From: a virus
DNA: 64,000 nucleotides
Strand: one strand, 5' to 3'
IMG/VR virus record: IMGVR_UViG_3300044701_001455
Span: 1 to 64,000 of that record
The first letter of the stretch is position 1, and each line of letters begins with the position of its first letter. Below, in pieces: positions 3,999 through 27,800 of the stretch. The notes under the pieces are model-generated. The model saw nothing but the letters and a program-made list of their open reading frames with translations, did not search any database and had not been told where the DNA came from. Both the position numbers and the translations under genes were made by a program.

Positions 3999-4007
3999 AT
4001 CCCGCCC

Positions 4008-4071: not shown

Positions 4072-4100
4072 TACTACAGTTCAAAAAAACACCGAAACCA

Positions 4101-4361: not shown

Positions 4362-4389
4362 CACTTTTCTCCCCTTACTTCCTCCTCAA

Positions 4390-4572: not shown

Positions 4573-4609
4573 TCACCTTCACTCCCGCAAACCAACTACA
4601 CACTCTCCA

Positions 4610-4834: not shown

Positions 4835-4844
4835 CAACGAAGGG

Positions 4845-4890: not shown

Positions 4891-5080
4891 GGGCAGTTGT
4901 CCTTATAACGTTATCGTTATGATGGCGCGGCCGTGCGGTTACCCCCGTATATAAAATCGCTAACTACCCTAACCTACAACGGACCTAAAAAGCGAGAGTG
5001 ATTATAAGACTCTTGAAAATTTCCGGAGGAAATGGTAGAATGCCTCTAAGATTTTCCAAAAAAATTCTGCCCAGAAAAAA

Positions 5081-7439: not shown

Positions 7440-7841
7440 ATGCCTGTAGAGAGAATTAGTAAGGAATTTAAAGATCTTAGTATGTCTCTACAGGTAAGCC
7501 CTTTGAATTATGATATTCTGGCAATAAAAAATGAGACTGCGATTGCTCGCGCAGTTCGTAATCTTGTTTCAACAGTGCCAGGTGAAAGATTTTTTAATCC
7601 TAGAGTTGGATCTGATATTTCTCAATCACTTTTTGAAAATATCGATCCAATTTCAGCATCTGTGATTAAGTCTCAGATTGAAGAAACGATTAAAAACTAT
7701 GAACCAAGAGTTCAGTTGACCGATGTTGAAGTGACTCCTTATTATGATGACAATGAATTCAATGTCACCATTCGTTATAACATCATCGGTATTGATGTTC
7801 AACCCCAGCAGTTAGTGTTCGCATTACAGCCAACTCGATAA
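7440..7841 (+). CDS. gp25: Baseplate wedge subunit gp25
   Basis: 133 residues, essentially the T4 gp25 length (132). The family signature is clear: NETAIARAVRNLVSTVPGERFFNPRVGSDISQSLFENIDP, followed by the C-terminal beta segment (VQLTDVEVTPYYDDNEFNVTIRYNI). gp25 is the lysozyme-like-fold wedge protein (also the type VI secretion TssE homologue) that joins the gp6-gp7 wedge and helps nucleate the sheath. ATG 7440 is chosen because the extra 14 residues before MSLQ are typical of cyanophage gp25. It abuts gp6 with no gap. Confidence 0.93.
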   Translation: MPVERISKEFKDLSMSLQVSPLNYDILAIKNETAIARAVRNLVSTVPGERFFNPRVGSDISQSLFENIDPISASVIKSQIEETIKNYEPRVQLTDVEVTPYYDDNEFNVTIRYNIIGIDVQPQQLVFALQPTR

Positions 7842-9755
7842 ATGGCAATTATAAATTTTACGGATTTAGATTTTGATCAAATAAGACTTTCTATTAAAGA
7901 TTATCTTAGATCAAATTCAAATTTTACAGACTATGATTTTGAAGGATCGAATATGTCGGTCCTGGTAGATATTCTTGCATATAATACTTACATATCTTCT
8001 TACAATGCCAATATGGTAAGTAATGAGATATTCATTGACAGTGCAACTCTTAGAGAGAACATTGTATCTCTTGCAAGAAATATTGGATATGTTCCTCGTT
8101 CAAGAACTGCGGCAAGAGCAAATATATCTTTCTTTATAGATGTATCAAATTATTCATCAATACCTAGAATTGTAACTTTAAATAAGGGTATTGTATGCAT
8201 AACAAGCTCAAATTTTGGAGGAGAAAGTTATACCTTTGCGACTCTTGAGGATATAACCGTTCCTGTTGTAAATGGAATCGCAAGTTTTAACAATATTGAT
8301 GTTTATGAAGGGACATTCTTAACAACTAATTTTACTGTAAATCCAAATGTCCCAAGCCCACCACAAAGATTTATTATTGAAAATCCAAATGTTGATACTA
8401 GTCTGATTAATGTTGTTGTATCGAAGACAGTTTTTAGTAATATTTCTAGTAAATATACGTTAACTAATGATATTTTTGATGTTGATGGCGATTCAAAGAT
8501 TTTCTTTATACAAGAAGTTGATGATCAAAAGTATGAATTAATTTTTGGTGATGGTATTTTCGGTAAAAAACTCGAAGAAAATAATTATATTTCGGTCAAT
8601 TACATAGTATCAAATGGAGAATTGGGTAATGGATTATCCCAGTTTAATTTTGCTGGTAGATTGAACTCCAATATTGGACTTATATCTCGTGGAATATCTT
8701 TAATTACTACCAATCAAGTATCAGATGGTGGAAGGGAAATTGAATCTGTCCAATCCATTCGTAATTATGCTCCCAAAAATTATGCAGCACAAAATAGAGC
8801 AGTAACTGCAGGTGATTTTAAGGCAATTATACCTTTGATCTATCCCGAATTGGAATCAGTTTCTGTATTTGGAGGGGAAGACTTATCTCCACCACAGTAT
8901 GGAAAAGTTTTTGTTGCTGTCAAACCACAAAATGGTTCTTTTTTACCATCAAGTGCTGCTCAAAATTTAAAGAATAAATTAAAGAAATATTCTGTTGCGG
9001 GAATTGTAACAGAAGTCATTGATTTAAAATATTTGTATATTGAATTAGATGTGAGTATCTACTACAATACAAATATGGTGTCAAATTCAGAACTTGCTGC
9101 CAATAAAGTGATCTCAAATCTGAGCAAATATTCAAAATCTATTGAAATTAATAAGTATGGTTCTAGATTTAAATATAGTAAGGTCCTTAAGTTAATTGAT
9201 GATAGTGATGAGGCAATTACTTCTAACATTACAAGAGTTTCTTTAAGAAGAGACTTTAGAGCTTCTATTAATCAATTTGCAGAATATGAAATTTGCTTTG
9301 GTAATGAATTTCATATTAATAATTCAAATGGATATAATATTAAAACTTCTGGATTTAAAGTTAATGGGATTAATGATACCGTTTATTTTTCAGATAAACC
9401 AAACTCAGATATGAAAAAAGGATCACTATTCCTATTCAAGATTGTTCCAGAATCTGTTGATCCTGTTGAGGTTAGACAAAATATTGGGACAATAGATTAT
9501 GAAAAAGGTGAAATTCTTTTAAATCCAATCAAGATCATTTCAACCAGTATAGATAAAGGTGAATCTATTGTTGAAGTTTCAGCAACACCAAAATCGAACG
9601 ATGTTATAGGTTTACATGATCTGTATTTACAATTAGATACTAATAATATTACAGTCACTCCTGTTCCTGATAATATTTCATCTGGAAATGATATTTCTGG
9701 ATCGAACTATATTACAACCTCAAGTTATACGAATGGAAAATTAATCAGAGAATAA
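7842..9755 (+). CDS. gp6: Baseplate wedge subunit gp6
   Basis: 637 residues (T4 gp6 is 660). The N-terminal part has NMSVLVDILAYNTYISSYNANMVSNE and RENIVSLARNIGYVPRSRTAARANISF, and the middle has the baseplate J-like core SDGGREIESVQSIRNYAPKNYAAQNRAVTAGDFKAII followed by VFGGEDLSPPQYGKVFVAVKP. gp6 forms the dimeric iris that holds the six wedges together and changes conformation on contraction. The gene begins at the base after the gp25 stop and ends 4 bases before the giant ORF, so these are one operon. Confidence 0.93.
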   Translation: MAIINFTDLDFDQIRLSIKDYLRSNSNFTDYDFEGSNMSVLVDILAYNTYISSYNANMVSNEIFIDSATLRENIVSLARNIGYVPRSRTAARANISFFIDVSNYSSIPRIVTLNKGIVCITSSNFGGESYTFATLEDITVPVVNGIASFNNIDVYEGTFLTTNFTVNPNVPSPPQRFIIENPNVDTSLINVVVSKTVFSNISSKYTLTNDIFDVDGDSKIFFIQEVDDQKYELIFGDGIFGKKLEENNYISVNYIVSNGELGNGLSQFNFAGRLNSNIGLISRGISLITTNQVSDGGREIESVQSIRNYAPKNYAAQNRAVTAGDFKAIIPLIYPELESVSVFGGEDLSPPQYGKVFVAVKPQNGSFLPSSAAQNLKNKLKKYSVAGIVTEVIDLKYLYIELDVSIYYNTNMVSNSELAANKVISNLSKYSKSIEINKYGSRFKYSKVLKLIDDSDEAITSNITRVSLRRDFRASINQFAEYEICFGNEFHINNSNGYNIKTSGFKVNGINDTVYFSDKPNSDMKKGSLFLFKIVPESVDPVEVRQNIGTIDYEKGEILLNPIKIISTSIDKGESIVEVSATPKSNDVIGLHDLYLQLDTNNITVTPVPDNISSGNDISGSNYITTSSYTNGKLIRE

Positions 9756-9759
9756 TAAA

Positions 9760-12700
9760 ATGAAGAAAGCAAGGATTAACATTAGTAACATACTAAAAAA
9801 CCAACTTCCTAATTTTGTAAAGGAAGAATATCCTTTGGTTGAAGAGTTATTCTCTGAATATTATAAAGGTCAAGAATATCAAGGTGGAATTTTAGACATA
9901 CTTCAAAATATTGATCAGTATATCAAATTAGACAATAATACTAATTTGACTGAAAGCACTAATATTGTATCAGATATTAGTTTTGCAGATGCTGTAATAC
10001 CTGTTACTAACACCAGTGGATTTCCAGATCGCTATGGTTTGATTGAGATTGATTCTGAAGTTATTCTTTATAAGTCAAAAACACAGAATTCATTCGTTGA
10101 TTGTGTAAGAGGTTTTAGTGGAATTACTTCTTATGATAATTCTTTAAATTTTGAACAAACTATTGCTGAAAATCATGTAGATGGATCTGTTGTTAAAAAT
10201 TTAAATATTTTATTTCTGAATGAGTTTTTCAACAAAGTTAAAAAGCAATTCGCACCTGGATTTGAGAATAGAAATTTCTTTAAAGATACATCTTCTAAAA
10301 TTGACCTTAATGAAAATGTTTTCATTAAACAACTGAAAGATTTCTATTCATCTAAGGGAACTGATGATTCGTTTAAAATATTATTCAAATCACTTTTTAA
10401 TGACAATGTTGAAATTATCAGACCTAGAGATTTTTTAATTCGTCCATCAGATGCTCAGTATAGAGTTAATAAGGAATTAATTATTGAAGCAATAGAAGGA
10501 GATCCTTTGGATCTTGTAGATACTACAATCTTCCAAAATCCTTTAACTATAAATGGTGAAGACTTTATTTCATATGCTTATGGAACGGTAAATAAGGTTG
10601 AAACTATTTCTAGAAAAGACAAGACTTATTATGCAGTCAGTCTAGATTTTGATTATAATAAGGATATTAACCTAAAGGGTTCTGTTTATGGTGAATTTGT
10701 AATTGGAGCAAAAACATTTATCACCGATAAAGTTTCTGAGCAGTCTACAGTAATCACAGTAGACTCAACGTATGGATTTCCAGAAACTAATGGAGTTTTA
10801 AGAGTCACATTTGATGATGGTCTAATCTCTACTATCTCGTATCAAAGAAAAAATCTTAATCAATTTATAGGTTGTTCCGAAATTAATAGAGAAATTCCCC
10901 AAGGAAATTCTATTTACTTGAATTATTATTGTGAAGGTGGAAATACTGTAGGGAATGATGAAAATCCTATTAAATTTAGAATTACAGGAGTATTATCAGA
11001 AGCAACAACATCTGATGATTCTCACTATATTGTAGAAGGTAATAGAATTAATCTAAGAACTTTAGGAAAGGATATTCGAGAACCTTCTTTTAATAATTGG
11101 AAATTTAATATTGCTCCAAAATATAATGTTAAAAGTATTATTAAAAATAATACTATCAATAACACTTATTTAATTGAAGTATATGATGAGCATATATTTT
11201 ATAAAGGAGACAGTGTAAAACTTATTTCATCAAGACCTCAATTAGTTCCCGGAACTGATGATCTAGGATTTTCTGAATTTTTTGGCGATGTTCAATCTGT
11301 AGATGGAAAGTTCTCTTTTACTTGTGCCATTAATTTTGATTTAGATACTACTTTAGTATATGAAGTTGAAAGAGAAATTAATAAATTTAATTTTAGTTAT
11401 AATTCTTCTATATCAGATTCAAATAATAATTACGTAACAGATGTTCAAAATGTTTATAGAGACTCTGAAGGATCTCTATATGTCGCTTCTCAGTCATTGC
11501 CAACATATACTAATGATGTTTTACCAATTACTGATGACACTATTGTATTATCATCGAGTGTTTATATAAGCGAAGAACTTAATCAGAACGATCCAGAAAA
11601 AATTGATAAGATTTTAAACATTGGAAGGCATACCTTTAAGACAGGCGATGCGGTTTATTATCAATCCGGAGATAATAATAATAAATTAAATTTATCTGAA
11701 GGAATTTATTATGTTAAAGTAGTTGGATCTCTTAATAACCCAACTCAAATTAAGTTATCTAGTAGCAGAACTAACATTGATAATAACATTTTCTTAGATG
11801 TTAGTTTAAAAAATCCATCTTTGACAGGTAGTGATAATAAATTATATAAGTCTACAAATGAAATAATTTATTTCCAAAATAGTCTTAAAAATAGTTTAAC
11901 TTCTTCAAAATTTGAGAAATTTATTTCTCCAAAGAATTTAATAAAAAAAATTAATAATCCATTAGAAACCAAAGAAAAACAACTGACTTCTCCTGGACAG
12001 ACTGGAATTTTAGTGAATGGTGTTGAAATTGTAAACTATAAATCAAATGATTTTATTTACTATGGATCAATTGAAGATATTAAAATTAAATCTCCAGGAA
12101 GCGACTATGATATTATAACCCCTCCGCAATTAAACATTGTTGATAAAAATGGGTCAGGTGCGTCTGCAATTTGTCACATTAGTGGATCTCTCACTAGAAT
12201 TGATATTTTAAATGGTGGATTTGATTATGAAAAAACTCCTACCATTGAGATTAGTGGTGGTAATGGTATTGATGCTGAAGTAAGTCCAAATATGAGCACA
12301 TTTGAGCATTCCATGGCATTTAGTGCCAAAGAAGGAACCTCTCAAATTAATTTTTCCTCAGATACTATCACATTTAATGTAAGACATAAATTTTATGATG
12401 GTGAGGAAATTAAATATGATTACACTCAAGTTCCTCTTGAAGGTCTTAGGAAAGAAATTACTTACTATGTTGGAACTGAAGATGATTATTCTGTAAAATT
12501 ATATGCAACATATCAGGATTCTATTAAAAAGATCAACCAAATTGATTTAAACTTACCCAATGTATTGGGGACGCATTATCTGATAAGTGTTCAAAAGAAA
12601 TCTACAATAGGATCTATCAATATTGTAAGGGCGGGAACTGGATATTCAAATAGAAAAACAGTTACTCTAAGTCAAAATATTAATATTTTTTCTAATGTAG

Positions 12701-15700
12701 TCAATATTAAAAATCATGGGTATCAAACTGGAGAAAAACTAGTATATTCAACAACAGGATCTCCTATTGTTGGTTTAGCAACAACATCCGAATACTTAGC
12801 TTATAAAGTCAATGAAGATCAATTTAAACTTTGCGAAATTAATAACCAGTCTGAAGATAAAAACTTCTATTTGAGAACAGAACAATTTGTTAATTTTACT
12901 GAAACCGGATCTGGAAATCATATTTTTAATTATCCTCCAATTTCAGTTAAAGTTATTGGATCATTTAAAAATAAAAATTTAAGCCCATCATTACTGGAAG
13001 CGCAAATTGTACCAGCATTTCGAGGATCTATAACTTCAGTTTTTGTTGAAAGTGGTGGAGTTGGTTATGGTTCTTCTGACATTATTAACTACAATAGGCA
13101 GCCAGATTTTGTTCTAGAAAATGGAACTGGTGCCGAATTAAGACCTATTATTTCTCAAGGAAAAATAAGTGAAGTTTTAATTGTAAATGGTGGATCTCAA
13201 TACACTGCGCTTCCGATAATTGAAGTTGTTGGATCGGGAACTGGAGCTAAATTACTGCCAATTATATCAAATGGAAGTATAGTTGATATTGAAATAGTTT
13301 CTTCCGGTATCAATTATGACTCCGATGCAACAATTTTAAATGTCAATTCTGCTGGATCTGGGGCTAATTTTGAATTTTCTATTCAATCTTGGAATGTTAA
13401 TTCTGTCGAAAGGTCAATTCAGAATGGTAATATTTTAACCAGTGATATTTTCCTTTATGACACTAAGAATGAGTATGATGAGAGAATGACTCAAATCACT
13501 CATTTATACGCACCTAGAAAACTTCGTGAAAATCTTATTGTTTCCAAGGAAGAAGGTGGTCAAATTTTCTACAGAAAGGATATTGAAAATGATACTAGAT
13601 TGGATGATTATTATCACTCTCCTATAATTGGTTGGGCATATGATGGAAATCCAATTTATGGACCATTTGGATATGAAAATCCAGATGGATCTGGATTGAC
13701 TAAGAAGATGAAGACTGGATATGGTTTAAATATCAGTAAACCAAATAGACCAAGTATAAACCTTTTCCCTGCTGGATTTTTTGTTGAAGACTATGATTAT
13801 ATTGGTAATGGAGATCTAGACGAATATAATGGAAGATTTTGCGCTACTCCAGAATTTCCAAATGGAACTTATGCATACTTTGCAACACTTGGAGAATTTG
13901 ATAATGTATTCAGTAGAGATTATTTGCGCCCAACCTTCCCATATTTAATAGGAAACTATTATAAATCAACTCCGATTGAATTTAATTTTGATGCTGATAA
14001 TACTCAAAACACGTTAGTATTTGAAAATATTAATTTAATTAGAAATACTACACCATATGGGATAATTTCTAAAAACAGTTCTTACAGTTATGCCTTTAAT
14101 CCAATAGATTATGAGGAACAACTTAATAAAATAACTAGAGTTGGTAATGGAAAAATTGATAATATTAATATTATTTCAGGTGGAGAAAATTATAAAGTAG
14201 GAGATAAAATCACACTTTCTGAGGATGAATTTGGAAACAAATCTTATGCTGAAATTACAAAGATTAAGGGTGTCGGAATATCTTCAATTTCAGTAACCTT
14301 TAATGAAATTCCATATGTTGAATTTGGATCTTCTAGAGACTTTAAAACTATTGTTGGGGTAGCTTCAACTCCACATCAATTAAAAGATCAGGATGTTATT
14401 AATATTATAGGATTAAATGAGATATTTACAAATAGACAAAAAAATGTAACATCAAGAATAAATGTTTTTACAAATCAATTGTCTATAACAAAAAATGTTG
14501 AGCCAAGTTCTGTTACTGGTATAATAACAACATTTCAAGTTAGTGGTAATCTGAATGATTATGCTATTAAGCCAAATGACATTTATATTTCTCAAGAAGG
14601 AGAAGAGATTAAAATACTGAATATTGACCTATCCTCATCTTCTATAAGAGTTAAAAGAGGAGTTGGATTATCAACATATTATTCTGGATCAACTTTAACA
14701 GAAAAACCAAGAAGATTTGAAGTTAGCGCCGTGGAAGCTTCATCTTCAGATAATTTAAATGGTAAAATTTATCCCACTAATAGGGAACTATATTTTAATC
14801 CATCAAACTCTGTTGGTCTTGGAACAGTTGGATTAAGCACTACCATTTTCCTTAATATAGTTCCTTTAAATTATCAAGTTTCAATTGACACCGAAGCAGA
14901 AGTTATTATTGGTGTTACTACAGTTTTAAGAACGGGATTGATTTTCAATAACCCATTGAATGCTGGACAATTTAAAATTGGCGATTATATCAATTTGGTT
15001 GGATCTTCTGACCTTAGTTTTAATGCAGTTCAAAAGGCAAAAGTTCTTAATGTAGGCATTGGATCGATTGTTGTTGATTATGATTCAACCGCACTATCTG
15101 GAATTGGAGTAACTTCTTTTGTTACTAAATGGGAAGTTAGTGAAATTGGAATACAATCATTGTATCTACCAAATCACAACTTAAAAACTGGTGAAAAAAT
15201 TACCTATTATGCAAATTCAGGAACACCCTTAGGAGTTTCTACAGATAAAATATCTTCTTCTTCATTATCTGATGGTAATGAGTTTTATGTTTCTAGTCTT
15301 GATCATGATCACATTGGAATTTCCACAGTAATAGTCGGATTGACGACATCTGGAGAATATTTAAATCCACTTAGTGGGCAAGGATTGCTATATTTTACTT
15401 CTTTGGGAAGTGGTTCTTATCATAGCTTTAAAACAAATTATAATGTCCAAAGTGGTAAAGTTATTAAAAATGTTGCAAGATTAGCAACTACTAAATCCCC
15501 ATCATTATTCTTTAATGAAAATATTGAAGTTTCTAATGTACCAAAAACAAATAGAACCATTGGTGTAAAGTATAATAAAGAAAATAGAAGATTAGTTGTA
15601 AATCCAAAGTCCTTTACCGTTATTGATGTAGATACAAATTCTAGTTCTATTTTTATCCCAGATCACAGATATTCTACTGGTGATAAAATTATCCATACGA

Positions 15701-18700
15701 CTGAAGATTTATCTTCTTTATTAGTAAATAATCAAATATACTACGTTGTCGTTGTTGATATTAATAATATTAAATTATCCGAAACATATTATGAAGCAAT
15801 TTCATTAAATCCAAATATAGTAAGTATTAATACTGCTTCATATGGACAGTTTTCTTTAGTCAACCCTTCTATAAAATTATATAGAAATGAGACTATTAGA
15901 TTTGATTTAACCGACAAATCATTGTCATTCATTAATGACGAAATCACTTACTCTGCATTTAGATTTAATCTATATAAAGATTCTAATTTTACAGAAAGAT
16001 TTACTAAAACTGAAGAGGATACTTTCTTTAGTGTGAGGAAGATAGGGGATGTGGGAATTACAAATAATGCTGCTGTGGAATTGAGGATTAGTGATAAGAC
16101 ACCTTCTAGATTGTATTATAGATTTGAATTAGATAATATTAACTATAATGTACCAAATAATCAGTTAGAATATATTATAGACGATGAAAATATTACCAAT
16201 AGTAGCACTCTTCTAATCGAAGATAGTGTTTATAGTGGAAATTATAATGTTTATAATGTTGGTAATAATTTTATAGAATATATTCTTGAAGAAAGACCTG
16301 AAAAAAGCGTATACTCTAATTTAGAATCATCTATCTCATATATTACAGATTCTTATTCTACTCTAGGTGAGATAGATGATGTTAAGGTTTTATCAAAAGA
16401 TAGGAAATATAGAGTTCTTCCAGGAATTACTTCAGTTTCGACTAAAACTGGATCGGGTGCTATATTATTCCCATATAGTAAGGATATTGGATCTGCTAAA
16501 AAGGTAAAAATTGAAAATATTGGATTTGACTACAGTTCCGACTATAGTTTGAGACCTACTGGAAACCTCCCTCAAATTATTCAAGTAGAGCCATTAAGTA
16601 TCTTTAAAGATATCAAGGTTACTTCTATTGGTAAAAATTACACAATTATTCCGACAATAATTGTTTTGGATGGATTAACTAAAGTTCAAGACAAACAGGC
16701 GGAGTTGAAGTTTTCCCCTGAAGAATCTTTGATTGAAATAATCCAAAATAGTTCAGGTCTTTATAATAAAACACCATATCTGATTCCTATTAATAATTCC
16801 AACGGATTTACTGTAAGTCCAGGATCGGTATCCTTTAACGAGGAAACCAAACTATTGACATTAACATTTAACACTTCTTTCAATAGCTTGGTAGATTTTC
16901 CTTTTTCTATTGGCAGTAAAGTTTTACTCGAAAACTTTAAAGTTAGCTCTACTTTCTTGAACGAATCTGGAGATCTTGAAGAGGCAACTAATGTCAGAGG
17001 ACTTAATTCTGAAGATTATGGATATGCATTATTTGAAATTTATCTATCTTCTGCAGCAGTAGGTGGAAGTGGTGCATCTATTACAATTGATATGACACCA
17101 TATTTAAATGATGATGAAATTCCCGGAATATACTCTCCAGTTAATTCTCTTGGATATGTTGTCCCTGAGAGTTATTTCCCAACTTTTGAAATTACCCTAC
17201 AAAAAAATAATTTTATTTTGGGAGAAGAAGTTATTACGACAAGTGGATATACTGGTATTGTAGAATACTGGGATAATGAAAATGAATTTGTAAGTGTTCT
17301 TTCGGATGATAAGTTTGTAAGCGGCGATAAAATTACGGGTAAAACATCAAACTTGAGTGGAATTGTCGGAAAAGTCGAATTTTTTGATGCAGAGTATAGC
17401 ACCAATTCTTTCTCTGTAGTTCAAAGAGGTTGGGATACTAATATTGGATTTTTAAACGATAGTATTCAAAGAATACACGATAGTGATTATTATCAATATT
17501 TCTCTTATGTTCTTAAATCTAAAACTCAATTTTCTGAGTGGAATGATCCTGTAAGTAGCCTTAATCATACCGTAGGATTCAAAAAATTTGGGACATTATC
17601 TATAGAATCTTTAACACCATCTGTTGGTGCTGCCACCACGGTTTCTTATTCTGAGTTAAATTCTGTTTCCGATTTATTTGAAGTTATTGATCTTAATTCA
17701 TATCACGATTTTGATATGGTTTCCGAAAATGCGTATAATCTGGGTGGAAGAATAGTATCTGACCAAATAATATTCAATACCCGCGAAATACAAGACTATT
17801 CAGAATCTATTGGAAATAGAGTACTGATGATAGATGATTTTAGTAATCAATTTAACAATATTCCAAGAGCAGAAAGATTTTCAATCGTTGACAAATTCCC
17901 AATTTATCAAAATAGGCATAGAAAATACTTTGCTTATGTTAAAGATAAACTCTTCTTTAATGAAAGGCAATTCTCCATAATTTCTTTAATACACGATGAT
18001 TTGAATGGATTTGTAAATCAATATGGAAGATTGGAAACTTACAATGAACTTGGAACGTTTGATTTTGTAATTAATGGTGACGAGGGTCAAGTTCAATTTA
18101 AACCTTTTGACTATGAATTCAATGATTTTGATATAGATTTAGTTTCTTATACTCTATTTGATACTTTTGTTGGTCTGGGAAGCACAACAGTTACAAACTA
18201 CAATATTGGAACTATTGCTAATCTTTCCAATAATGTTGGTGTTCTTCCTGAAAATTCAACAAATGCCGTTACTGTTGCAACTATTCCCATTTCATATAGA
18301 TCTTCTAAAATTATTTTAACTTCTAATAGTTTAAATGGGTCATATAGAGAGTCTACTGAATTAAATATTATTCACGACGGAACCAACGTATATATTACTG
18401 AATATGGAAAGTTATTTACTAAGAATATTAACCCCCCAGTTGGATTAGCAACATATTCTGCGTATATACAAGGTTCAAATATAATTTTAGATCTTGTTCC
18501 ATATGTTGGATATGGGTCTACAGTAGAAGTTAATGTTTTTAAACTATCAGTAAGGGATGAAAATGCAACATCTGGAGGTGTTTTATCTGAAAATAATGCC
18601 AGATTAGAAACTGGATTTATTAATATTCCTTCCGGAAATGTTGGGGTTGCGATTACTTTCCACAATTATTCCTATGAGTATGGTGGTGGATATTATTATA

Positions 18701-21700
18701 TGTCAATTCAAGACAACTCTACCTTTAGATACCAATCCCTAGAACTTTCTACATTAAATAATCAAACTGATGTTTATCATACACAATTTGGATCTATAAT
18801 TACCGACGATTCTTTAGTTGGACTGGGAACTTTTTCCACACAAATAATCGGAAGACGAGTTTATCTATCGTTTATACCTTCAGTAAATGCAAATATTTCT
18901 ATAAGATTCTATTATAATGGAATTAAAACAATTACTGAAACAGATATTCCGCCAAATGAGGTTGTTCTTGATTTAAATGAAGCTCAAATTGTAAGTTTTA
19001 ATTCTGATTATATTGGAACTGAAAATTCTATAAAGAGATCTTTTGATTTGTTCCATAAAAAACTTCCTATTATGAAGAGAACCTTCAGAGGAAATAATTC
19101 TTCTGGAGTTAATTTATCTGCCGACAGGGTAAACATTCCAAATCACTATTTTTCAACTGGCGAAGAAGTTGTGTATGATTTTGGTGCAGATGAACCTATT
19201 GGAATAGCAACAACAACTATTGCTGGTATTGGTATTACTGATCAATTGCCATCTAATCTTTACATTATAAAAGTTAATGATCTTTCAGTAAGAGTTGCTG
19301 CATCAGCATCGGAAGCTTTAAAAGCAAATCCAGAATATTTAAAATTAACATCTTATGGAGTAGGTTCCCAGCATTCATTCACTGGAAAGAAAGGGAATAG
19401 TAGATCATTGATTACGATTGATAATATGATCCAGTCTCCTATCGTATCAGCAGGAAAAACTACATCCTTAAGCGCAAATGTTGCTTTAAAGGAAATAAGA
19501 GTGAAAGTTAATGACCCAAGTATTTTTATTGCTGGTGATATATTTAAAGTTGATGATGAGATTATGAGAGTTAAATCCGTGGGATTTGGTTCTACTAACA
19601 CTTTACTTGTTAATAGATTTTGGATGGGAACTCTTCCAGGTATTCATAGCACTGGGGCTATATGCGAAAGACTGAAGGGAGATTATAATATTATAGGTAA
19701 TAAGATTAATTTCTATGATGCTCCTTATGGAAAAGTTCCAGTAGTTGCAGAAAATCCAAGATATGATGAGGTTGATTATATTGGAATTCAAACCAGTTCT
19801 TCTTTCTCAGGTAGAATATTTAATAAATCAGGAACAACAAATAGCTCTTCAGTGACTTATAGTGATAATATTTTATTAGATGATTTATCAAATGAGTTTA
19901 CTGGAATAGCAACAATATTTACCCTTAATGAAAATGGAACTCCAGTTAGTGGAATTTCAACATCCAATTTATTTGTCTTGATTAAAGATATCCTACAGAT
20001 TCCAAATAATGAACTTAGGACAAATAATGGTGCATTTGAACTAGGATCAAATCTAAGTGGTCAAACTACAATCGTTTTCAATAAAGATCCCGAAAAAGAT
20101 TTTTCTAATATAGATGATATCAATACTACAAATATTCCTTCAGGTGGTATTATACTGAGTGTTGGATCCACATTTGGTGGAGGATATCAACCAATAAAAA
20201 CTGCTGGAGGTATAGCACAGGTTAATAATAGTGGCCAAATTTCTTCGATCTCAATAGGATTTTCTGGATCAGGATATAGAGTATCCGGTGAAAAGGAAAT
20301 AATAGTATCCAGTGCATCAACAGTTTCTATTGGAACTAATATTATTCCAGTTGTTGAAGAGCGAGGATTATTCTCGAAGTTTGCATATTCTGGAGAACCA
20401 ACTTGTAATGTAGGAATTGGAACATCTTTATATTCAGTTTCTATTAGTTCTTATAATTCAGTTTTATCGACAATTACAATATCTAGAAATACTGAGGTTG
20501 AAATTCCAAAATCTACACCAATTTCTATCAAATTGAACGAATTGACTGCAGAATTAGTTGATATTGGAGTTAGGACTGAAAGTAATGAAAATTATGAAAA
20601 ACATTATATTGGATTTACAACTGTTGTTGAAGGGCATATTTCAGGTTCATTGAATCTTATAAATCCCGGCATTGCATTTACAAGTTTTTATGATAAGTTC
20701 AACACTAATACATCAATATCAGTTTCATCTGGATCTACAATATTCTATTTGAATTCTATAAATGATATTTTCGTTGATGACTATATTTCCATCAATTCTT
20801 CAGCGTTGTTAAAAATTGTTGGAATTGGAAATACCTTTGTTTATTCAGAAACTCCTTTTGGTTCCGCAGTTTCTTCAGGAACTAATGTTCTTATTAGAAG
20901 ATATTCCCCTCCAGAAGTTGTATTTGATTCTCCAGTTGGATATTCCAATATCCCATTAGTTTATAGCTCTTTATCGGGTTCTAGTGGAATTGGAACTGGT
21001 GCTAAGATAAAAATTAGTGTAGGTGAGGATGGGGAAGTAATTGATTTTGATATTCAAAATTCTGGATATGGATACAAAAAATCAGATATACTTACAGTTC
21101 CAGTAGGAGGATTGAGTGGAATACCTGCAGATCCTTCACTTACATTTGCTGAATTTAAAATCTTCGTTGACAGTATCTACAACACTAAGTTTTCTGCTTG
21201 GTCTATTGGAGATTTACTTGTTATTGATAATTTTGATGATTTATTTGATGGAAATAGAAGAGTATTTCCAATTAAAATAAATGGAATACCTAGATCAATT
21301 AGAGCAAAAAGAGGATCTACGCTTGATATTCAGGCAACGTTGATCGTTCTGTATAACGACATACTTCAAGTTCCTGGAGAAGGATATACTTTTAAAGGTG
21401 GAAGTATTATTACCTTCCCAGAAGCTCCTAAGTATGAAGATAGGGTCTCTATAATCTTCTATAGAGGAAATGAAGAAGTTGATGTTATTGATGTTGATCT
21501 TCTAGAGACAGTTAAAGTTGGTGATGGATTGAGAATTGTAAATGATCAAAAGAAATTTAACGAAGATCAGAGAATAGTATCTGATGTTGTTTCTTCCGAC
21601 TATGCAAATACAAATCCATATTTGGGTAGAGGTATTTCGCAGAATATTGATTTCTTAAGACCAGTAGTATTCTCAAAACAGAATATTGATTTAGTTATTG

Positions 21701-23325
21701 ATGGAGTTAATATCGGTAAAGATAGAAATTGGTATGAAACGACCATTTATCCATCTACAACTGTTATACAGGATATTGGGATTGGTAGTAGCGAAATATA
21801 CGTTGAGTCTTTAAAGACATTCTTTGATAATGATGCTGAAAATATTGTTGATAAAGATAAATTCGTAATTAAAATTATTGATCAAACTCCACTTAAGGGC
21901 GCAATAGCAACTTGCCAGGTTTCTTCTGGAAATATTTCATCCATTGATTTAATTGATGGTGGATATGGATACTCTGAGGCACCAAAGGTATTAATTGAAA
22001 ATTCTCCAGTTTCTTCTGGAATTGCATATACAATGTCCCTAACTTCAATAATTGATCAATCTGGCATCTCAACAACTGGAGTGACAAGTTCTATTTTAGG
22101 GGAAACTATCATTGGGGTTGAAAGTGATACTATAGCAATTCTTTCCGGAATATCAACTATTGATCCTATTATTTCGTATGTTCCTATTACTCCAACAACA
22201 TTTATTGTTAGTGAAGAGATTAGATTTGAAGAATCTGGTTTAAACGCTGAGATTCAATCACTATCAACAAACTCAAGCAATGCAGTTGGTGTTGCAACCA
22301 TCACTGATGGTGTTGTAACTGGCATTGATATAGTAAATGCTGGATATGGATATACTTATGGACCTATTAAAAACCTAGAAGTTATTAGTAATGGTTCTGG
22401 TTATCCGGAAACTTTAAACCCATCAAATAGTTCATTCTATAATGCAAGACTTAAAACATCAACCGGAATTGGTTTTGGTGGAATTGTAGATGTTATTATT
22501 GAAAAAGATCTTATTACTCTATTACCAGTTCTTGACTTTAATAGTGATAATATTAAAAACGGTGGTTCTAACTATAAAGTTGGAGATATTTTAGAAGTAA
22601 AAACATTTGATAATATTGGAGTTGGACTGACATATAGAAATAAGGTTCTTGATACTCCTATACAATTTAAAGTTACTGAAATAAAAGCACCTTTGGTTAT
22701 TATCGATGAACCGTCACCTGAAGTTGAAGTAATTAAAAATGTATCTTTTACTGGAGATTTTGGTGAAGTTGTTGGTATTGGAACAACAGTAGTTGGTATT
22801 TCAAGTAATGCATTGATCTTTGATCTTTATATTCCTAATGACTCTTATCTAAGAAATTCTATTGTTATTGGAGATACTATAGTTGGTTCTGCTATTACTA
22901 TAAGCCAATTAAGTTTTGGTGATTATTTTGTAATTAGTAATTCAAATATTGGATCTGGAGTTATTTCACTAAGAAATGATGGTTCAGTTATTGGGATTTC
23001 CACATCCGGTGATAATATAAACAATGTTTATCAGGTATATTCTAGTGAAATTTTAGAATTAGACATTGCAACTAGTGGAATAAGAACTTCATATATTAAT
23101 AGAGTAACATCTTTTGTTCAATCTTTTGATAGTGATATTATTAACATTTCTTCTTATGACCAAATATATGCAAATTATAGTTGGGGTAAGATAGGAAATC
23201 TTATCGATAGAACAAATCCTAAAGAATTCAAAACATATCAAGATCAAATTTCTGGAATTGGATCAAATCCAATAATTCAGAGGTTTAAAAACTTAAAATA
23301 TGTTGGATATAGCACAGTATTATAA
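9760..23325 (+). CDS. Giant virion protein in the gene 7 position (4521 aa)
   Basis: An uninterrupted 4521-codon frame between gp6 and gp8, where T4 encodes gp7 (1032 aa). The first ~75 residues (KKARINISNILKNQLPNFVKEEYPLVEELFSEYYKGQEYQG..ILQNIDQY) look like a helical wedge-attachment region. From about residue 85 the protein is made of recurring beta-modules. One is 'GFPDRYGLIEIDSEVILYKS' at ~87. A second is the H..TGE..Y type (for example NHGYQTGEKLVYS). A third is the GSGY/PP type, from ~740 to ~4200. A YHYH-type domain (YYHSPIIGWAYDGNPIYGPFGY) lies near residues 1280-1300. It is presumably a baseplate-peripheral protein combining the gp7 role with adhesive or surface functions; only the position and the N-terminal style support the gp7 link. 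No frameshift or stop interrupts it. Confidence 0.85.
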   Translation: MKKARINISNILKNQLPNFVKEEYPLVEELFSEYYKGQEYQGGILDILQNIDQYIKLDNNTNLTESTNIVSDISFADAVIPVTNTSGFPDRYGLIEIDSEVILYKSKTQNSFVDCVRGFSGITSYDNSLNFEQTIAENHVDGSVVKNLNILFLNEFFNKVKKQFAPGFENRNFFKDTSSKIDLNENVFIKQLKDFYSSKGTDDSFKILFKSLFNDNVEIIRPRDFLIRPSDAQYRVNKELIIEAIEGDPLDLVDTTIFQNPLTINGEDFISYAYGTVNKVETISRKDKTYYAVSLDFDYNKDINLKGSVYGEFVIGAKTFITDKVSEQSTVITVDSTYGFPETNGVLRVTFDDGLISTISYQRKNLNQFIGCSEINREIPQGNSIYLNYYCEGGNTVGNDENPIKFRITGVLSEATTSDDSHYIVEGNRINLRTLGKDIREPSFNNWKFNIAPKYNVKSIIKNNTINNTYLIEVYDEHIFYKGDSVKLISSRPQLVPGTDDLGFSEFFGDVQSVDGKFSFTCAINFDLDTTLVYEVEREINKFNFSYNSSISDSNNNYVTDVQNVYRDSEGSLYVASQSLPTYTNDVLPITDDTIVLSSSVYISEELNQNDPEKIDKILNIGRHTFKTGDAVYYQSGDNNNKLNLSEGIYYVKVVGSLNNPTQIKLSSSRTNIDNNIFLDVSLKNPSLTGSDNKLYKSTNEIIYFQNSLKNSLTSSKFEKFISPKNLIKKINNPLETKEKQLTSPGQTGILVNGVEIVNYKSNDFIYYGSIEDIKIKSPGSDYDIITPPQLNIVDKNGSGASAICHISGSLTRIDILNGGFDYEKTPTIEISGGNGIDAEVSPNMSTFEHSMAFSAKEGTSQINFSSDTITFNVRHKFYDGEEIKYDYTQVPLEGLRKEITYYVGTEDDYSVKLYATYQDSIKKINQIDLNLPNVLGTHYLISVQKKSTIGSINIVRAGTGYSNRKTVTLSQNINIFSNVVNIKNHGYQTGEKLVYSTTGSPIVGLATTSEYLAYKVNEDQFKLCEINNQSEDKNFYLRTEQFVNFTETGSGNHIFNYPPISVKVIGSFKNKNLSPSLLEAQIVPAFRGSITSVFVESGGVGYGSSDIINYNRQPDFVLENGTGAELRPIISQGKISEVLIVNGGSQYTALPIIEVVGSGTGAKLLPIISNGSIVDIEIVSSGINYDSDATILNVNSAGSGANFEFSIQSWNVNSVERSIQNGNILTSDIFLYDTKNEYDERMTQITHLYAPRKLRENLIVSKEEGGQIFYRKDIENDTRLDDYYHSPIIGWAYDGNPIYGPFGYENPDGSGLTKKMKTGYGLNISKPNRPSINLFPAGFFVEDYDYIGNGDLDEYNGRFCATPEFPNGTYAYFATLGEFDNVFSRDYLRPTFPYLIGNYYKSTPIEFNFDADNTQNTLVFENINLIRNTTPYGIISKNSSYSYAFNPIDYEEQLNKITRVGNGKIDNINIISGGENYKVGDKITLSEDEFGNKSYAEITKIKGVGISSISVTFNEIPYVEFGSSRDFKTIVGVASTPHQLKDQDVINIIGLNEIFTNRQKNVTSRINVFTNQLSITKNVEPSSVTGIITTFQVSGNLNDYAIKPNDIYISQEGEEIKILNIDLSSSSIRVKRGVGLSTYYSGSTLTEKPRRFEVSAVEASSSDNLNGKIYPTNRELYFNPSNSVGLGTVGLSTTIFLNIVPLNYQVSIDTEAEVIIGVTTVLRTGLIFNNPLNAGQFKIGDYINLVGSSDLSFNAVQKAKVLNVGIGSIVVDYDSTALSGIGVTSFVTKWEVSEIGIQSLYLPNHNLKTGEKITYYANSGTPLGVSTDKISSSSLSDGNEFYVSSLDHDHIGISTVIVGLTTSGEYLNPLSGQGLLYFTSLGSGSYHSFKTNYNVQSGKVIKNVARLATTKSPSLFFNENIEVSNVPKTNRTIGVKYNKENRRLVVNPKSFTVIDVDTNSSSIFIPDHRYSTGDKIIHTTEDLSSLLVNNQIYYVVVVDINNIKLSETYYEAISLNPNIVSINTASYGQFSLVNPSIKLYRNETIRFDLTDKSLSFINDEITYSAFRFNLYKDSNFTERFTKTEEDTFFSVRKIGDVGITNNAAVELRISDKTPSRLYYRFELDNINYNVPNNQLEYIIDDENITNSSTLLIEDSVYSGNYNVYNVGNNFIEYILEERPEKSVYSNLESSISYITDSYSTLGEIDDVKVLSKDRKYRVLPGITSVSTKTGSGAILFPYSKDIGSAKKVKIENIGFDYSSDYSLRPTGNLPQIIQVEPLSIFKDIKVTSIGKNYTIIPTIIVLDGLTKVQDKQAELKFSPEESLIEIIQNSSGLYNKTPYLIPINNSNGFTVSPGSVSFNEETKLLTLTFNTSFNSLVDFPFSIGSKVLLENFKVSSTFLNESGDLEEATNVRGLNSEDYGYALFEIYLSSAAVGGSGASITIDMTPYLNDDEIPGIYSPVNSLGYVVPESYFPTFEITLQKNNFILGEEVITTSGYTGIVEYWDNENEFVSVLSDDKFVSGDKITGKTSNLSGIVGKVEFFDAEYSTNSFSVVQRGWDTNIGFLNDSIQRIHDSDYYQYFSYVLKSKTQFSEWNDPVSSLNHTVGFKKFGTLSIESLTPSVGAATTVSYSELNSVSDLFEVIDLNSYHDFDMVSENAYNLGGRIVSDQIIFNTREIQDYSESIGNRVLMIDDFSNQFNNIPRAERFSIVDKFPIYQNRHRKYFAYVKDKLFFNERQFSIISLIHDDLNGFVNQYGRLETYNELGTFDFVINGDEGQVQFKPFDYEFNDFDIDLVSYTLFDTFVGLGSTTVTNYNIGTIANLSNNVGVLPENSTNAVTVATIPISYRSSKIILTSNSLNGSYRESTELNIIHDGTNVYITEYGKLFTKNINPPVGLATYSAYIQGSNIILDLVPYVGYGSTVEVNVFKLSVRDENATSGGVLSENNARLETGFINIPSGNVGVAITFHNYSYEYGGGYYYMSIQDNSTFRYQSLELSTLNNQTDVYHTQFGSIITDDSLVGLGTFSTQIIGRRVYLSFIPSVNANISIRFYYNGIKTITETDIPPNEVVLDLNEAQIVSFNSDYIGTENSIKRSFDLFHKKLPIMKRTFRGNNSSGVNLSADRVNIPNHYFSTGEEVVYDFGADEPIGIATTTIAGIGITDQLPSNLYIIKVNDLSVRVAASASEALKANPEYLKLTSYGVGSQHSFTGKKGNSRSLITIDNMIQSPIVSAGKTTSLSANVALKEIRVKVNDPSIFIAGDIFKVDDEIMRVKSVGFGSTNTLLVNRFWMGTLPGIHSTGAICERLKGDYNIIGNKINFYDAPYGKVPVVAENPRYDEVDYIGIQTSSSFSGRIFNKSGTTNSSSVTYSDNILLDDLSNEFTGIATIFTLNENGTPVSGISTSNLFVLIKDILQIPNNELRTNNGAFELGSNLSGQTTIVFNKDPEKDFSNIDDINTTNIPSGGIILSVGSTFGGGYQPIKTAGGIAQVNNSGQISSISIGFSGSGYRVSGEKEIIVSSASTVSIGTNIIPVVEERGLFSKFAYSGEPTCNVGIGTSLYSVSISSYNSVLSTITISRNTEVEIPKSTPISIKLNELTAELVDIGVRTESNENYEKHYIGFTTVVEGHISGSLNLINPGIAFTSFYDKFNTNTSISVSSGSTIFYLNSINDIFVDDYISINSSALLKIVGIGNTFVYSETPFGSAVSSGTNVLIRRYSPPEVVFDSPVGYSNIPLVYSSLSGSSGIGTGAKIKISVGEDGEVIDFDIQNSGYGYKKSDILTVPVGGLSGIPADPSLTFAEFKIFVDSIYNTKFSAWSIGDLLVIDNFDDLFDGNRRVFPIKINGIPRSIRAKRGSTLDIQATLIVLYNDILQVPGEGYTFKGGSIITFPEAPKYEDRVSIIFYRGNEEVDVIDVDLLETVKVGDGLRIVNDQKKFNEDQRIVSDVVSSDYANTNPYLGRGISQNIDFLRPVVFSKQNIDLVIDGVNIGKDRNWYETTIYPSTTVIQDIGIGSSEIYVESLKTFFDNDAENIVDKDKFVIKIIDQTPLKGAIATCQVSSGNISSIDLIDGGYGYSEAPKVLIENSPVSSGIAYTMSLTSIIDQSGISTTGVTSSILGETIIGVESDTIAILSGISTIDPIISYVPITPTTFIVSEEIRFEESGLNAEIQSLSTNSSNAVGVATITDGVVTGIDIVNAGYGYTYGPIKNLEVISNGSGYPETLNPSNSSFYNARLKTSTGIGFGGIVDVIIEKDLITLLPVLDFNSDNIKNGGSNYKVGDILEVKTFDNIGVGLTYRNKVLDTPIQFKVTEIKAPLVIIDEPSPEVEVIKNVSFTGDFGEVVGIGTTVVGISSNALIFDLYIPNDSYLRNSIVIGDTIVGSAITISQLSFGDYFVISNSNIGSGVISLRNDGSVIGISTSGDNINNVYQVYSSEILELDIATSGIRTSYINRVTSFVQSFDSDIINISSYDQIYANYSWGKIGNLIDRTNPKEFKTYQDQISGIGSNPIIQRFKNLKYVGYSTVL

Positions 23326-23333
23326 ATTCACAG

Positions 23334-23341
23334 TATAAATA
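23334..23341 (+). promoter_or_regulatory. Late promoter TATAAATA before gp8
   Basis: Perfect TATAAATA in the 32-base gap between the giant ORF and gp8, 16 bases before ATG 23358. Exact match to the T4 late consensus, giving gp8 and downstream genes an internal late start. Confidence 0.7.
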
Positions 23342-23357
23342 ATCAAAAAAATAAAAA

Positions 23358-24881
23358 ATGTCAGCAATTATAACTGATCAACTTAGAATATCCAATGCTT
23401 TGAGTTTTTTGGATAAAATTAACAATTCATTAAATTCATATTATGTGTTTTTAGGATTGTCAAATCCAACAGAATACCTTAGCACTTGGGAATCTCTTCC
23501 ACCATTTCAGCGTGATAATTTTGATGAAGAGAATAAGTGTTGGGATACTATGTTTTCTTTGAAAAAAATTTCTCCCAGTGATGTTTCTCCAGTTGTTCGA
23601 AGAATAAATTGGGAATCTGGAAGAATATATGATATGTATCGTCATGATATTAGTATTGACAAAAGATCTAACCAAACTCAGGCAACATCTTTATATTCTT
23701 CCGATTACTATGTGGTAACAAAAGATTATAAAGTTTATATTTGCCTTCAAAATGGAACATCACCAGAATCTTTAACTGGAAATCCTTCCTTGGATGAACC
23801 AACTTTTACTGATCTTGAACCAAGAGCAGCGGGGACTAGTGGTGATGGGTATATTTGGAAATATCTTTATACAATTAGACCAAATGAAATTGTTAAATTT
23901 GATAGCACAAATTTTATTCCCTTACCTAAAAATTGGACAACTAATCAGGAAAATGCTGCAGTAAGATTGAACGCATCTTCAAGTGGACAAATAAAGATCA
24001 TTAATATACTTGAAAGGGGTGCCAATTTAGGAGCACCTGGTCTTTATCAAAATGTTCCCATAAGAGGAGATGGACAAGGAGCAACAGCGACAATTGTTGT
24101 TGGTAGTGATAATACTGTAGATAAAATATTTGTATCAAATGGAGGATCTGGATATACTTTTGGAACTGTCGATCTCGAAAATTCAGGTCTATTTCTTGTA
24201 GATCCTCCAAAATTTGATGTCATAATTCCACCAAAAGGTGGTCATGGAGCAAATATTTACAGAGAACTTGGATCTACTAATATTTTATTATATTCTAGAA
24301 TTGAAAATGATATTGGAGATCCTGACTTTATTGTTGGTAATAAAATTGCAAGAATTGGGATTATTGAAAATCCAGAGGCATTTGATTCCACATCAGTTCT
24401 ATCGATACAAAAAGCAAGTTCTTTGTATGCATTAAAATTAAAAGAGCCTGGCGCAAGTTCTGCAGTAATTCCTGCAAATATAACGTTCACCCAAACAATA
24501 ACAGGAGTTGGAACCGCTGTAGGAAGAGCAGTTTCTTATGATAATGAAACCGGTGTATTAAAATATTGGCAGGATAGATCTTTGTATGGGTATACAAAGG
24601 CTGGTGTTTCAACTAATGCTCCCTATGGATTAGTTCAAAATGCATTTACTGGAGGGACTATTAACGTAGACGCAAATACTATTGAAATTGATGGTGGATT
24701 TAGTGGTATATCTACAGTAATAAATAATGGTACAGTTTATCTCGGGCAAAATTTTACTAATGGTCTATCAAACCCTGAGGTAAAAAAATATACCGGAAAT
24801 ATAATTTATGTTGATAATAGACCATCCATAACCAGGTCTGCAAATCAGAAAGAAGATATCAAAGTCATTTTGCAATTCTAA
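23358..24881 (+). CDS. gp8: Baseplate wedge subunit gp8, with inserted beta-repeats
   Basis: 507 residues against 334 for T4 gp8. The N-terminal 190 residues show the family pattern: NSYYVFLGLSNPTEYLSTWESLPPFQRDNFDEENKCWDTMFSLKKISPSDVSPVVRRINW, then YDMYRHD, then SSDYYVVTKDYKVYICLQNG and GDGYIWKYLYTI. Residues ~215-275 are a GSGY-type insert (IINILERGANLGAPGLYQNVPIRGDGQGATATI ... VSNGGSGYTFG), which accounts for much of the extra length. gp8 is a wedge protein bridging gp10 and gp7 in T4. It is followed by 6 bases and then the DUF4815 protein. Confidence 0.9.
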   Translation: MSAIITDQLRISNALSFLDKINNSLNSYYVFLGLSNPTEYLSTWESLPPFQRDNFDEENKCWDTMFSLKKISPSDVSPVVRRINWESGRIYDMYRHDISIDKRSNQTQATSLYSSDYYVVTKDYKVYICLQNGTSPESLTGNPSLDEPTFTDLEPRAAGTSGDGYIWKYLYTIRPNEIVKFDSTNFIPLPKNWTTNQENAAVRLNASSSGQIKIINILERGANLGAPGLYQNVPIRGDGQGATATIVVGSDNTVDKIFVSNGGSGYTFGTVDLENSGLFLVDPPKFDVIIPPKGGHGANIYRELGSTNILLYSRIENDIGDPDFIVGNKIARIGIIENPEAFDSTSVLSIQKASSLYALKLKEPGASSAVIPANITFTQTITGVGTAVGRAVSYDNETGVLKYWQDRSLYGYTKAGVSTNAPYGLVQNAFTGGTINVDANTIEIDGGFSGISTVINNGTVYLGQNFTNGLSNPEVKKYTGNIIYVDNRPSITRSANQKEDIKVILQF

Positions 24882-24887
24882 TCTATC

Positions 24888-27800
24888 ATGCCACAAGAAA
24901 CCAATCTTAACGTATCTCCTTATTTTGACGATTTTGATGATAAAAAGAATTTTTATAAGGTTTTATTTAAGCCAGGATATCCCGTCCAAGCAAGAGAACT
25001 GACAACTTTACAGTCAATTCTCCAAAATCAAATTGAAAAGTTTGGATCTCATATTTTTAAAGAAGGATCTCCTGTTCTTGGTGGTAATGTTGTTTATGAT
25101 AATTATTATGAAGGTATCCAAGTTGAACCAACCTATCTTGGTCTTTCTGTAGATTCATATCTGGGAGATCTTGTAGGTAAATATGTTATAGGGCAGGATT
25201 CTAAAGTTAAAGCAAGAGTTGAATATATTTTATCTTCTAATGATTCCCCTACTAAAAATACAATAGTTTATGTTTCTTATAGAGATTCCAGTGTTGATAA
25301 TAATAGGCAATTTAGAGACGGAGAAATAATCACCACAGAAGAAGATGTTCCTTTTGTTGCAGGAGGAGTGACTAGTATTCAGGCAGGACAAGGTGTTTGT
25401 AAAACAATCTCACAAAACTCATCTGTTACTGGATCATCTATTCATATTTCATCTGGAGTTTATTTTATTAGGGGATATTTTGTAAATGTTGATGAAGAAA
25501 CTCTATTATTGGACCCAACTTCTAATAATGTAACTTATAGTGTAGGATTAAAAATTTTTGAAGATGTTGTAACTTTTGATGATGATGAAACTCTTGCAGA
25601 TAATTCTCAAGGATTTTCTAACTATGCTGCTCCAGGAGCAGATAGATTTTCTATTAAAGTAAGATTAGCAAAATATTCAATTAATGAAAATCAAGATGAA
25701 GGATATTTAGAATTATTTAAGGTTAGGGACGGAATTCCAGATAAAGTTCAAAAAGATGCAGAATATAATCTTCTAGCTAATGAATTTGCTAGGAGAACTT
25801 ATGATGAATCTGGAGATTATTATGTAACTCCATTCAAACTTACTGTCAACGAATCATTAGATAATTTAAAAGGTAATAAAGGTATATTTAAAGAAGGGCA
25901 GCAAACTTATGGTAATAGAACTGCAAGTGAGTCTTTAGGTGTTTACAAATTATCTCCTGGAAAAGCTTATATTAGAGGATTTGAAGTTAATGTCCCAAAT
26001 CCATCTTTTATTGATTTTAATAAACCAAGAGTAACAAAAACTTTATCCAATCAAAGTCTTGTTTATAATACTGGATCTACATTTACACTGAATAGAGTCC
26101 ACGGAACCCCACCTATTGGAATTTCAACAACTTATACTTTAAGTTTTAGATCGGAAAGAATAGGATCTGATAATAACACTGCTCCAGGAAAAGAAATTGG
26201 TATTGCTAGAGTTTATGATTTTGCCTTAGAATCTGGATCATATAATCCATTAAGCCAAAATATAAATGAATGGGATATTACATTATTTGATGTTCAAGCA
26301 TATACTGAAATTACACTTAATGATGCAATTAGTTTAGAGTTTCCTACTTTTATTAAAGGTAGTTCTAGTGGAGCAACTGCATTTCTTAAAGATAATGTAG
26401 TTAATTCAGGAATTCTTACCGCATATAACGTAAATGGTAGGTTCCTAAAAGGAGAAAGATTAAGCTTTGATAGTATCCAGAACAATAGAATTATTACCTC
26501 ATTTAAAACATATGATATTGGAGATTTTAAATCTGTTTATGGAATAGTCGGAACCGGATCGACATTTACTGCCGATATTGTCCAGAAGCAAAAATCTTTT
26601 GTCGGTCCAGTAAGTATATCAGGTTATACATCAGGAATTAGCACTGTCACTAGTTCTAGTTTTATTTTTAATAAAGTTGCTTTAGAGAATGATATAGTTT
26701 CATTTTCTAGTCCTGAGCAAGAAGAACCAACTTATGCAAAAATTGTTAGTGTCAGTGAAAAAAGTATTACAATTACTCAAGTCACTCCAGTATCAGACGT
26801 ATGTGTTAGCACATTGTCACTATCACCTATAAATGTTTCTGATTTTAAAATCTTAACATCATCATTACAATCATCAACTGATAATACATTATATACCATC
26901 TTCCCACATAACAAAATTTCTTCAACTAATCTAGAAAATTCTGAAATTATTATTAGAAGACAAAGGCAAATTGATATTTTAGATAATACTTCTGATGTTA
27001 TTATTTTAGAAGATGATGAAAGATTTATGCCTTATGATGAAGAAAGATATTCAGTGATTTATTCCAATGGGGATACTGAGCCTTTAAGAGAAGATCAGTT
27101 CTCAATTACTCTTGGAGGTCAAAGTCTTAGAATTAATGGTCTATCTTTGACAGGTGTCGCTGCTACACTAACATACACAATTAAAAAACTTAATGTAAGT
27201 GCAAAAGTTAAAACTAGAAATAGAGTTAATAATATTATTGTAGATAAATCAAAATATAATTTCTCTGGAGTTGGGCAAACAACAATTAATGATGGATTAA
27301 CATTTGGAAATTATCCATATGGAACAAGAGTTCATGATGAAGATATATGTTTAAACTATCCAGATATTGTAAAATTATTGGGAGTATTTGAAACTAATAG
27401 TGCTACTGATACACCTTCACTCCCATCAGTTACAATGAGCTTATCTGATGTAACAACATCAAGTATGATTTTGGGTGAAGAATTTATTGGGGAAAGAAGT
27501 AATTGTGTTGCGATATTAGTAGAAAAAATTAATAATAATACAATTAGTTACATCACTCTAAATTCTTCGAGTTTTTCTGAAAATGAAACATTAAAATTCA
27601 AGGAATCTGGAATAGTTGCATCTATCAATTCTTTGAATTCTGGAAACTGTAAAAATATAACAGATAGTTATGTTTTAGATAACGGTCAAAGAGATACTTT
27701 TTATGACTATGGTAGAATTGTTAGAAAATCTACTGCAAGAGAACCACGCAAAAAATTAAAAATTGTTTTTGAATCTACTGATTTTTCACCTTCAGATCCT

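Follow-up and report, generated by a model that had tools for sequence, protein, structure and literature searches.

The window analyzed here is a stretch of 64,000 nucleotides, positions 1 to 64,000 of the IMG/VR virus record IMGVR_UViG_3300044701_001455; the record itself is a fragment of 70,128 bases. Pfam and PHROGs matches on the plus strand resolve a run of baseplate genes in the order gp25 (sheath initiator/wedge; 7440..7841; PF04965, 2.1e-15, and phrog_261), gp6 (baseplate wedge; 7842..9755; PF21379, 1.6e-16, and phrog_219, 9e-194), an ORF of 4521 residues (9760..23325) and gp8 (baseplate wedge; 23358..24881; PF09215, 1.9e-16, and phrog_438), so that the long ORF lies between gp6 and gp8, the place that marks the gp7 family. 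A VrlC-like gene distinct from this ORF follows at 24888..33227 (phrog_358), and the same profile matches the ‘VrlC protein’ of S-SM2, which occupies the same place after gp8. The first-pass annotation had described a single 13.6 kb frame between gp6 and gp8 that is over four times the length of T4 gp7. Both statements are accurate: the frame opens with an ATG four bases past the gp6 stop codon, continues uninterrupted through 4521 codons without an internal stop, and compares with 1032 residues in T4. GC content changes from ~42–51% at window positions 1–5000, where most ORFs are short, to ~26–33% at 7500–12000, where structural genes are located.

The ORF is conserved as a gene. Intact orthologues are present on independent IMG/VR contigs, with closed frames of 4521, 4518, 4516, 4509, 4375, 4366, 4052, 4007, and 3001 residues. 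Against two relatives of 90% and 87% amino-acid identity (dS ~0.5–0.6), dN/dS is 0.10 and 0.11, respectively, and the ratio is low in nearly every 500-residue block of the ORF. Intact orthologues and low dN/dS together indicate that the full length is kept as a protein; a chance ORF is ruled out by the same orthologues and the dN/dS of 0.10. The protein matches the PHROG family ‘baseplate wedge subunit’ (phrog_2885) over essentially the full length of the profile, with a score of 2980 bits (residues 3–4186 against profile positions 7–4038 of 4179). A near-identity search among cultured phages gave no match; a tblastn search with the first 1000 residues retrieved 487 phage records, mostly from Synechococcus and Prochlorococcus phages, which points to a probable relation of the window phage to cyanophages. 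Many of these records carry the annotation gp7 or ‘baseplate wedge initiator’.

Since gene order by itself can give rise to such annotations, the window protein was compared directly with T4 gp7. BLAST aligns residues 178–219 with T4 gp7 residues 717–758 (E 1e-5), with the common stretch DFYS.KG..S.K.LFK.L....VEI. In hhalign, the profile of the N-terminal 330 residues matches the Straboviridae gp7 profile with a probability of 97.2 (E 3.6e-11), pairing residues 186–296 with T4 725–814. As controls, 12 other 330-residue tiles of the protein reached a probability of 30 at most, and 20 column-shuffles reached 1.0 at most; the weak match of tile 2311–2640 to the T4 core profile (probability 30, E 5e-4) was taken as noise. 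An HMM of the core matches T4 gp7 residues 707–798 (E 1.2e-9), and when the N-terminal profile is searched against all PDB sequences, T4-type gp7 alone is significant (2.3e-5 and 4.2e-5). Conversely, the T4 gp7 profile phrog_964, run over the 70,128-base record, gives one match, at 10267–10416 inside the ORF (E 9.7e-9). The strong part of the similarity spans only ~90–110 residues, and the match covers only positions 709–757 of the 1030-position phrog_964 profile: the full T4 architecture, in which the core is preceded by ~640 residues and followed by domain VI, was not found. Likewise, the Pfam gp7 domains V and VI have no match in the window protein, and the Pfam family Baseplate_wedge (PF23786) scores 20.0 bits, below its curated cut-off of 27, which is exceeded in the relatives S-SM2 (28.4), IME-SM1 (29.4), and Melnitz-2 (40).

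These matches locate the wedge core at the N-terminal end of the giant protein. Residues 1–62 (9760..9945) form an N-terminal helical segment and presumably supply the core-bundle helices; five short helices are predicted within residues 8–60 at modest confidence (pLDDT), in line with the short helical N-terminus that had been claimed. Searched alone by sequence, these helices have no match in T4 gp7. They are followed by the first copy of a β-module named module B (residues 67–123; 9958..10128; module HMM), whose predicted fold resembles the tail-tip β-domains of phages Chi and JBD30 (Z ~10.5). The wedge core domain proper (residues 144–300; 10189..10659) is equivalent to T4 gp7 residues ~707–815, as found by hhalign, the core HMM, and the PDB-wide profile search. 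The proposed identity as gp7 is supported, with a correction: the N-terminal match falls on T4 ~707–815, near the C-terminus of that protein, and homology to the T4 gp7 N-terminus was rejected. Neither an unrelated N-terminus nor a separate gp7 elsewhere, the pair of findings that the first-pass annotation had set against its own reading, was encountered within the 70-kb record.

Structural comparison of the predicted N-terminus with T4 gp7, also proposed at first pass, gave a divided result. The model is of moderate confidence (mean pLDDT 76, pTM 0.39). Foldseek returned T4 gp7 (5iv5) as the sole match at E <0.001, but global superposition on T4 gp7 was poor, with a TM of 0.15, so the three-dimensional match counts as local support. 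The VIA-align rows obtained for this model are taken up by its two B modules, not by the core.

Behind the wedge core, the protein consists of ~4,200 residues of β-modules. We searched for them with iterated HMMs built from internal repeats, and five module families were recognized, of which module A (56 positions) is of a GxGY type. The earlier description, ‘dozens of recurrent beta-modules’, is fair: there are 30 matches, with none in 20 shuffled sequences. Module A is counted 16 times (some matches overlapping), module B three times, module C six times, module D three times, and module E twice. As the HMMs were trained on the gp7 family, these counts describe the family and are no independent proof of homology elsewhere. 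From the N-terminal side, the chain, as delineated by the module HMMs, begins with the second module B (residues 319–379; 10714..10896), a β-domain that by its predicted fold has counterparts in tail tips and tailspikes of phages (Z 8–11.6). It continues with module C copy 1 (616–672; 11605..11775), a module A pair (769–847; 12064..12300), module C copies 2 (867–920; 12358..12519) and 3 (978–1030; 12691..12849), and a module A cluster (1089–1217; 13024..13410). Beyond the YHYH domain described below, there are a module A (1464–1515; 14149..14304), module C copies 4 (1799–1860; 15154..15339) and 5 (1961–2012; 15640..15795), a module A (2203–2258; 16366..16533), and the third module B (2319–2377; 16714..16890). 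The distal half holds the three copies of module D (2737–2782, 2864–2914, and 2992–3040; 17968..18879), module C copy 6 (3121–3185; 19120..19314), module E copy 1 (3370–3442; 19867..20085), a module A pair (3442–3542; 20083..20385), a single module A (3721–3772; 20920..21075), module E copy 2 (3820–3902; 21217..21465), and a last series of module A matches (4030–4071, 4155–4198, 4201–4255, and 4261–4298; 21847..22653).

The YHYH-type domain that had been noticed near residue 1280 was recovered at residues 1284–1377 (13609..13890), where PF14240 matches with 86.4 bits (3.3e-24; curated cut-off 25) over positions 90–182 of its 193. Its HSPIIGWAYDGNPIYGP motif is near-invariant in relatives and recurs in the gp7 proteins of five cultured cyanophages; the same pattern was not found in three short gene-7-slot proteins. 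The YHYH region has no relative by sequence in the PDB copy searched. Residues 1121–1200, within the preceding module A cluster, are predicted to be all-β (pLDDT ~85). The predicted structure of the larger region that comprises the A modules and the YHYH domain (1081–1470) has a mean pLDDT of 46 and gave no Foldseek match. At the far end of the protein lies a YSWGKI box (residues 4473–4478; 23176..23193), and the underlying pattern SWG[KR][IM] is found near the C-terminus in all 16 of the near-full-length relatives among the matches listed.

Modules of the same types occur in other proteins of the window: module A in gp14 (four matches), gp8 (two), VrlC (one), and a tail-fiber gene (one), and module B in gp15 (one) and VrlC (one). 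One stock of modules seems to be shared by neck, baseplate, and other tail proteins. Gp14 (34450–35856) has 468 residues, compared with 256 in T4, and its four module A matches lie behind the neck-protein domain; gp15 is encoded at 35871–36872.

To see how the wedge core is embedded in relatives, we located it with profiles of its two segments, the helices and the core domain. The helical segment (1–62) is recognized at the N-terminus of 9/9 gene-7-slot proteins tested from this group, which range from 503 to 6180 residues, and slot proteins of 503, 896, 1454, 2845, 4156, 5195, 6076, and 6180 residues all carry this core at their front. In the smallest, from Stenotrophomonas phage IME-SM1 (503 residues), the two segments are nearly contiguous (2–55 and 68–193); in Methylophilales phage Melnitz-2 (896 residues) they lie at 8–50 and 158–291, and in S-CRM01 (1454 residues) at 1–64 and 148–243. 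B23, whose slot protein of 2845 residues is accompanied by a separate gene for another 1081, shows a similar gap between helices and core domain, as do S-SM2 (4156 residues), the window protein, and P-SSM2 (5195 residues). In Syn9 (6076) and S-SM1 (6180), the helices again occupy residues 1–62, but the core domain lies at ~653–801, and modules A, B, and E fill the ~590 residues between them. The positions of the segments across relatives therefore define a constant wedge core with two growth points, one at the junction of helices and core domain and the other at the C-terminus.

A giant gp7 is thus of ordinary size for this phage group, as S-SM2, P-SSM2, Syn9, and S-SM1 show, and the design, a wedge core with a β-module chain, has precedents: marine cyanophages have such proteins by annotation, and GenBank lists them as gp7. 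The nearest comparison is with the giant gp7 of S-SM2 and P-SSM2 (phrog_2885), which share the gene slot, the N-terminal core, the module families in similar order, the YHYH motif, and the C-terminal SWGK/R box. S-SM2 gp7 is 35% identical to the window protein over residues 1–3647; the window protein has 16 module A matches, against 11 in S-SM2 and 10 in P-SSM2. S-SM1 T4-GC969 (16150–34692 of its genome) and Syn9 gp101 (16144–34374) share the core, modules A, B, and E, and the YHYH motif, and differ by the modules inserted into the core. In both phages, the gene that follows encodes a gp9/gp10-like connector, not gp8. T4 gp7 of the Straboviridae has the wedge core and the position between genes 6 and 8 in common with the window protein, but there ~640 residues, including an fn3-like domain, precede the core, which adjoins a Pfam gp7 helical domain at 643–689, and Pfam domain VI lies behind it, whereas in the window protein the core comes first and the modules follow. 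In evolutionary terms, judged from the sequences, T4 gp7 would have grown at its N-terminus and the group of the window phage at the gap inside the core and at the C-terminus; the parts taken as peripheral are attached to opposite ends of the wedge core in the two. A single BLAST of S-SM1 residues 1–640 against T4 gp7 gave nothing significant.

In the known systems, each wedge is built from two gp6 chains and one gp7 chain, which associate by a helical core bundle at the N-terminus and by a trifurcation domain (PMC6300606, PMC10457771). The minimal orthologues XM1 gp17 and TssG, likened here by description, take the same place in the (gp6)2–gp7 and (TssF)2–TssG heterotrimers (PMC10457771, PMC6300606); XM1 gp17 differs in having only 242 residues and in binding separate tail spikes, which it does by a loop and its C-terminal tail (PMC10457771). 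The 4521-residue ORF is very probably the gp7 of this phage and part of a (gp6)2–gp7 wedge, with the chain most likely peripheral. Residues 1–62 would bundle with two gp6 chains, the core domain at ~144–300 is equivalent to the wedge core of T4 gp7, and both segments would enter the wedge when it assembles with gp6 and gp25, following the T4 pattern. The module chain would leave the core on its C-terminal side, with one module lying between helices and core domain, and would run outside the hub as a peripheral scaffold or arms in six copies per tail, where it may hold the tail fibers or contact the cell surface. It could thereby take over the jobs of T4 gp10, gp11, and the N-terminal domains of T4 gp7. 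The C-terminal side that binds spikes in XM1 would here carry the module chain itself, so that the peripheral structure is supplied in cis. No match to PF07880 (gp9/gp10) was found in the 70-kb record; PF08677 (gp11) likewise has none, and since it failed in every control as well, this result is uninformative. As a tentative extension, which we regard as somewhat doubtful, the wedge protein itself may have become the peripheral baseplate: modules added to the gp7 core at its C-terminal end, and in the line of S-SM1 and Syn9 also within a loop of it, would replace gp10 and gp11 as the attachment platform, and six arms of ~500 kDa would link the wedge to fibers or to the host surface. The PDB copy searched holds no structure of a giant gp7 and no relative beyond the T4 gp7 core. 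As for presence in the virion, 41 proteins were reported in purified S-SM1 particles, T4-GC969 among them (PMC3037559). T4-GC969 corresponds to SSM1_102 of the S-SM1 record, the 6180-residue protein in the gene 7 slot, and contains the core (E 1e-23). Arguing by analogy, since this homologue is distant and belongs to a different length class, we strongly infer that the window gp7 is likewise present in virions.

The literature offers a different assignment. T4 gp7 was described as absent from pelagimyophages and cyanomyophages and apparently replaced by VrlC (PMC7029224), and a second paper placed gp7 in the non-cyanophage core and remarked on its extreme divergence (PMC3037559). The giant protein could then be a tail fiber or adhesin that sits in the gene 7 slot while VrlC supplies the gp7 role, a reading to which the annotation of the Syn9 homologue as ‘putative fiber’ and the tail-protein-type modules that form the bulk of the 4521 residues would lend themselves. 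We consider it very improbable. The T4 gp7 core is found in the giant ORF and nowhere else in the 70-kb record, VrlC included; in the window, as in S-SM2, the gp7 core and VrlC are encoded by separate genes, which makes the giant protein the better gp7 candidate; and even a slot protein of 503 residues with hardly any module chain has the core. The published reading, gp7 absent and VrlC in its place, does not fit the window data.

Two further alternatives accept the protein as gp7 and concern the chain. It might be cleaved in the virion, leaving a small wedge subunit and the modules as separate proteins. Phage B23 could be cited for this, as its gp7 equivalent (16004–27783) is divided between two neighboring genes, for 2845 and 1081 residues, with a 4-base overlap, and such a split implies that an unbroken chain is not essential; the break separates the region of module D from that of module E. 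Yet most relatives keep one intact frame, and the B23 split may be a sequencing or local event. We know of no evidence for processing of the gp7 chain, and we hold cleavage to be improbable. The other alternative, a sub-case of the preferred reading, is that the chain is mainly a scaffold by which the wedge is connected with gp8, VrlC, and the sheath, and does not face the host. The recurrence of modules A and B in gp14, gp8, VrlC, and gp15 and the even purifying selection along the chain, with no obvious hypervariable tip, are in keeping with it, and the even selection together with the modules shared with gp8 and gp14 leans slightly toward a scaffold. The predicted module B domains, on the other hand, resemble β-domains of the tail tips of phages Chi, JBD30, and lambda and of tailspikes (Z ~8–11.6), a likeness that leans slightly toward a peripheral position but fails to separate scaffold from adhesin. 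Nothing decisive stands against a mainly scaffolding chain, which we rate as rather unlikely.

Marine T4-like phages are very abundant. For a gp7 headed by a wedge core, the mapping shows that this core is constant while its attachments range from almost nothing to ~6,000 residues, and it offers structural biologists a division of the protein into ~300 residues to be modeled within the wedge and ~4,200 to be sought outside it. The precise placing of the core within the giant protein is also what argues against substitution by VrlC. Elsewhere in the window, two other long genes, at 42711–50990 (2759 residues) and 56409–61679 (1756 residues), match tail-fiber and collagen-like PHROGs, with ~20 repeated matching stretches in the former and up to five in the latter.
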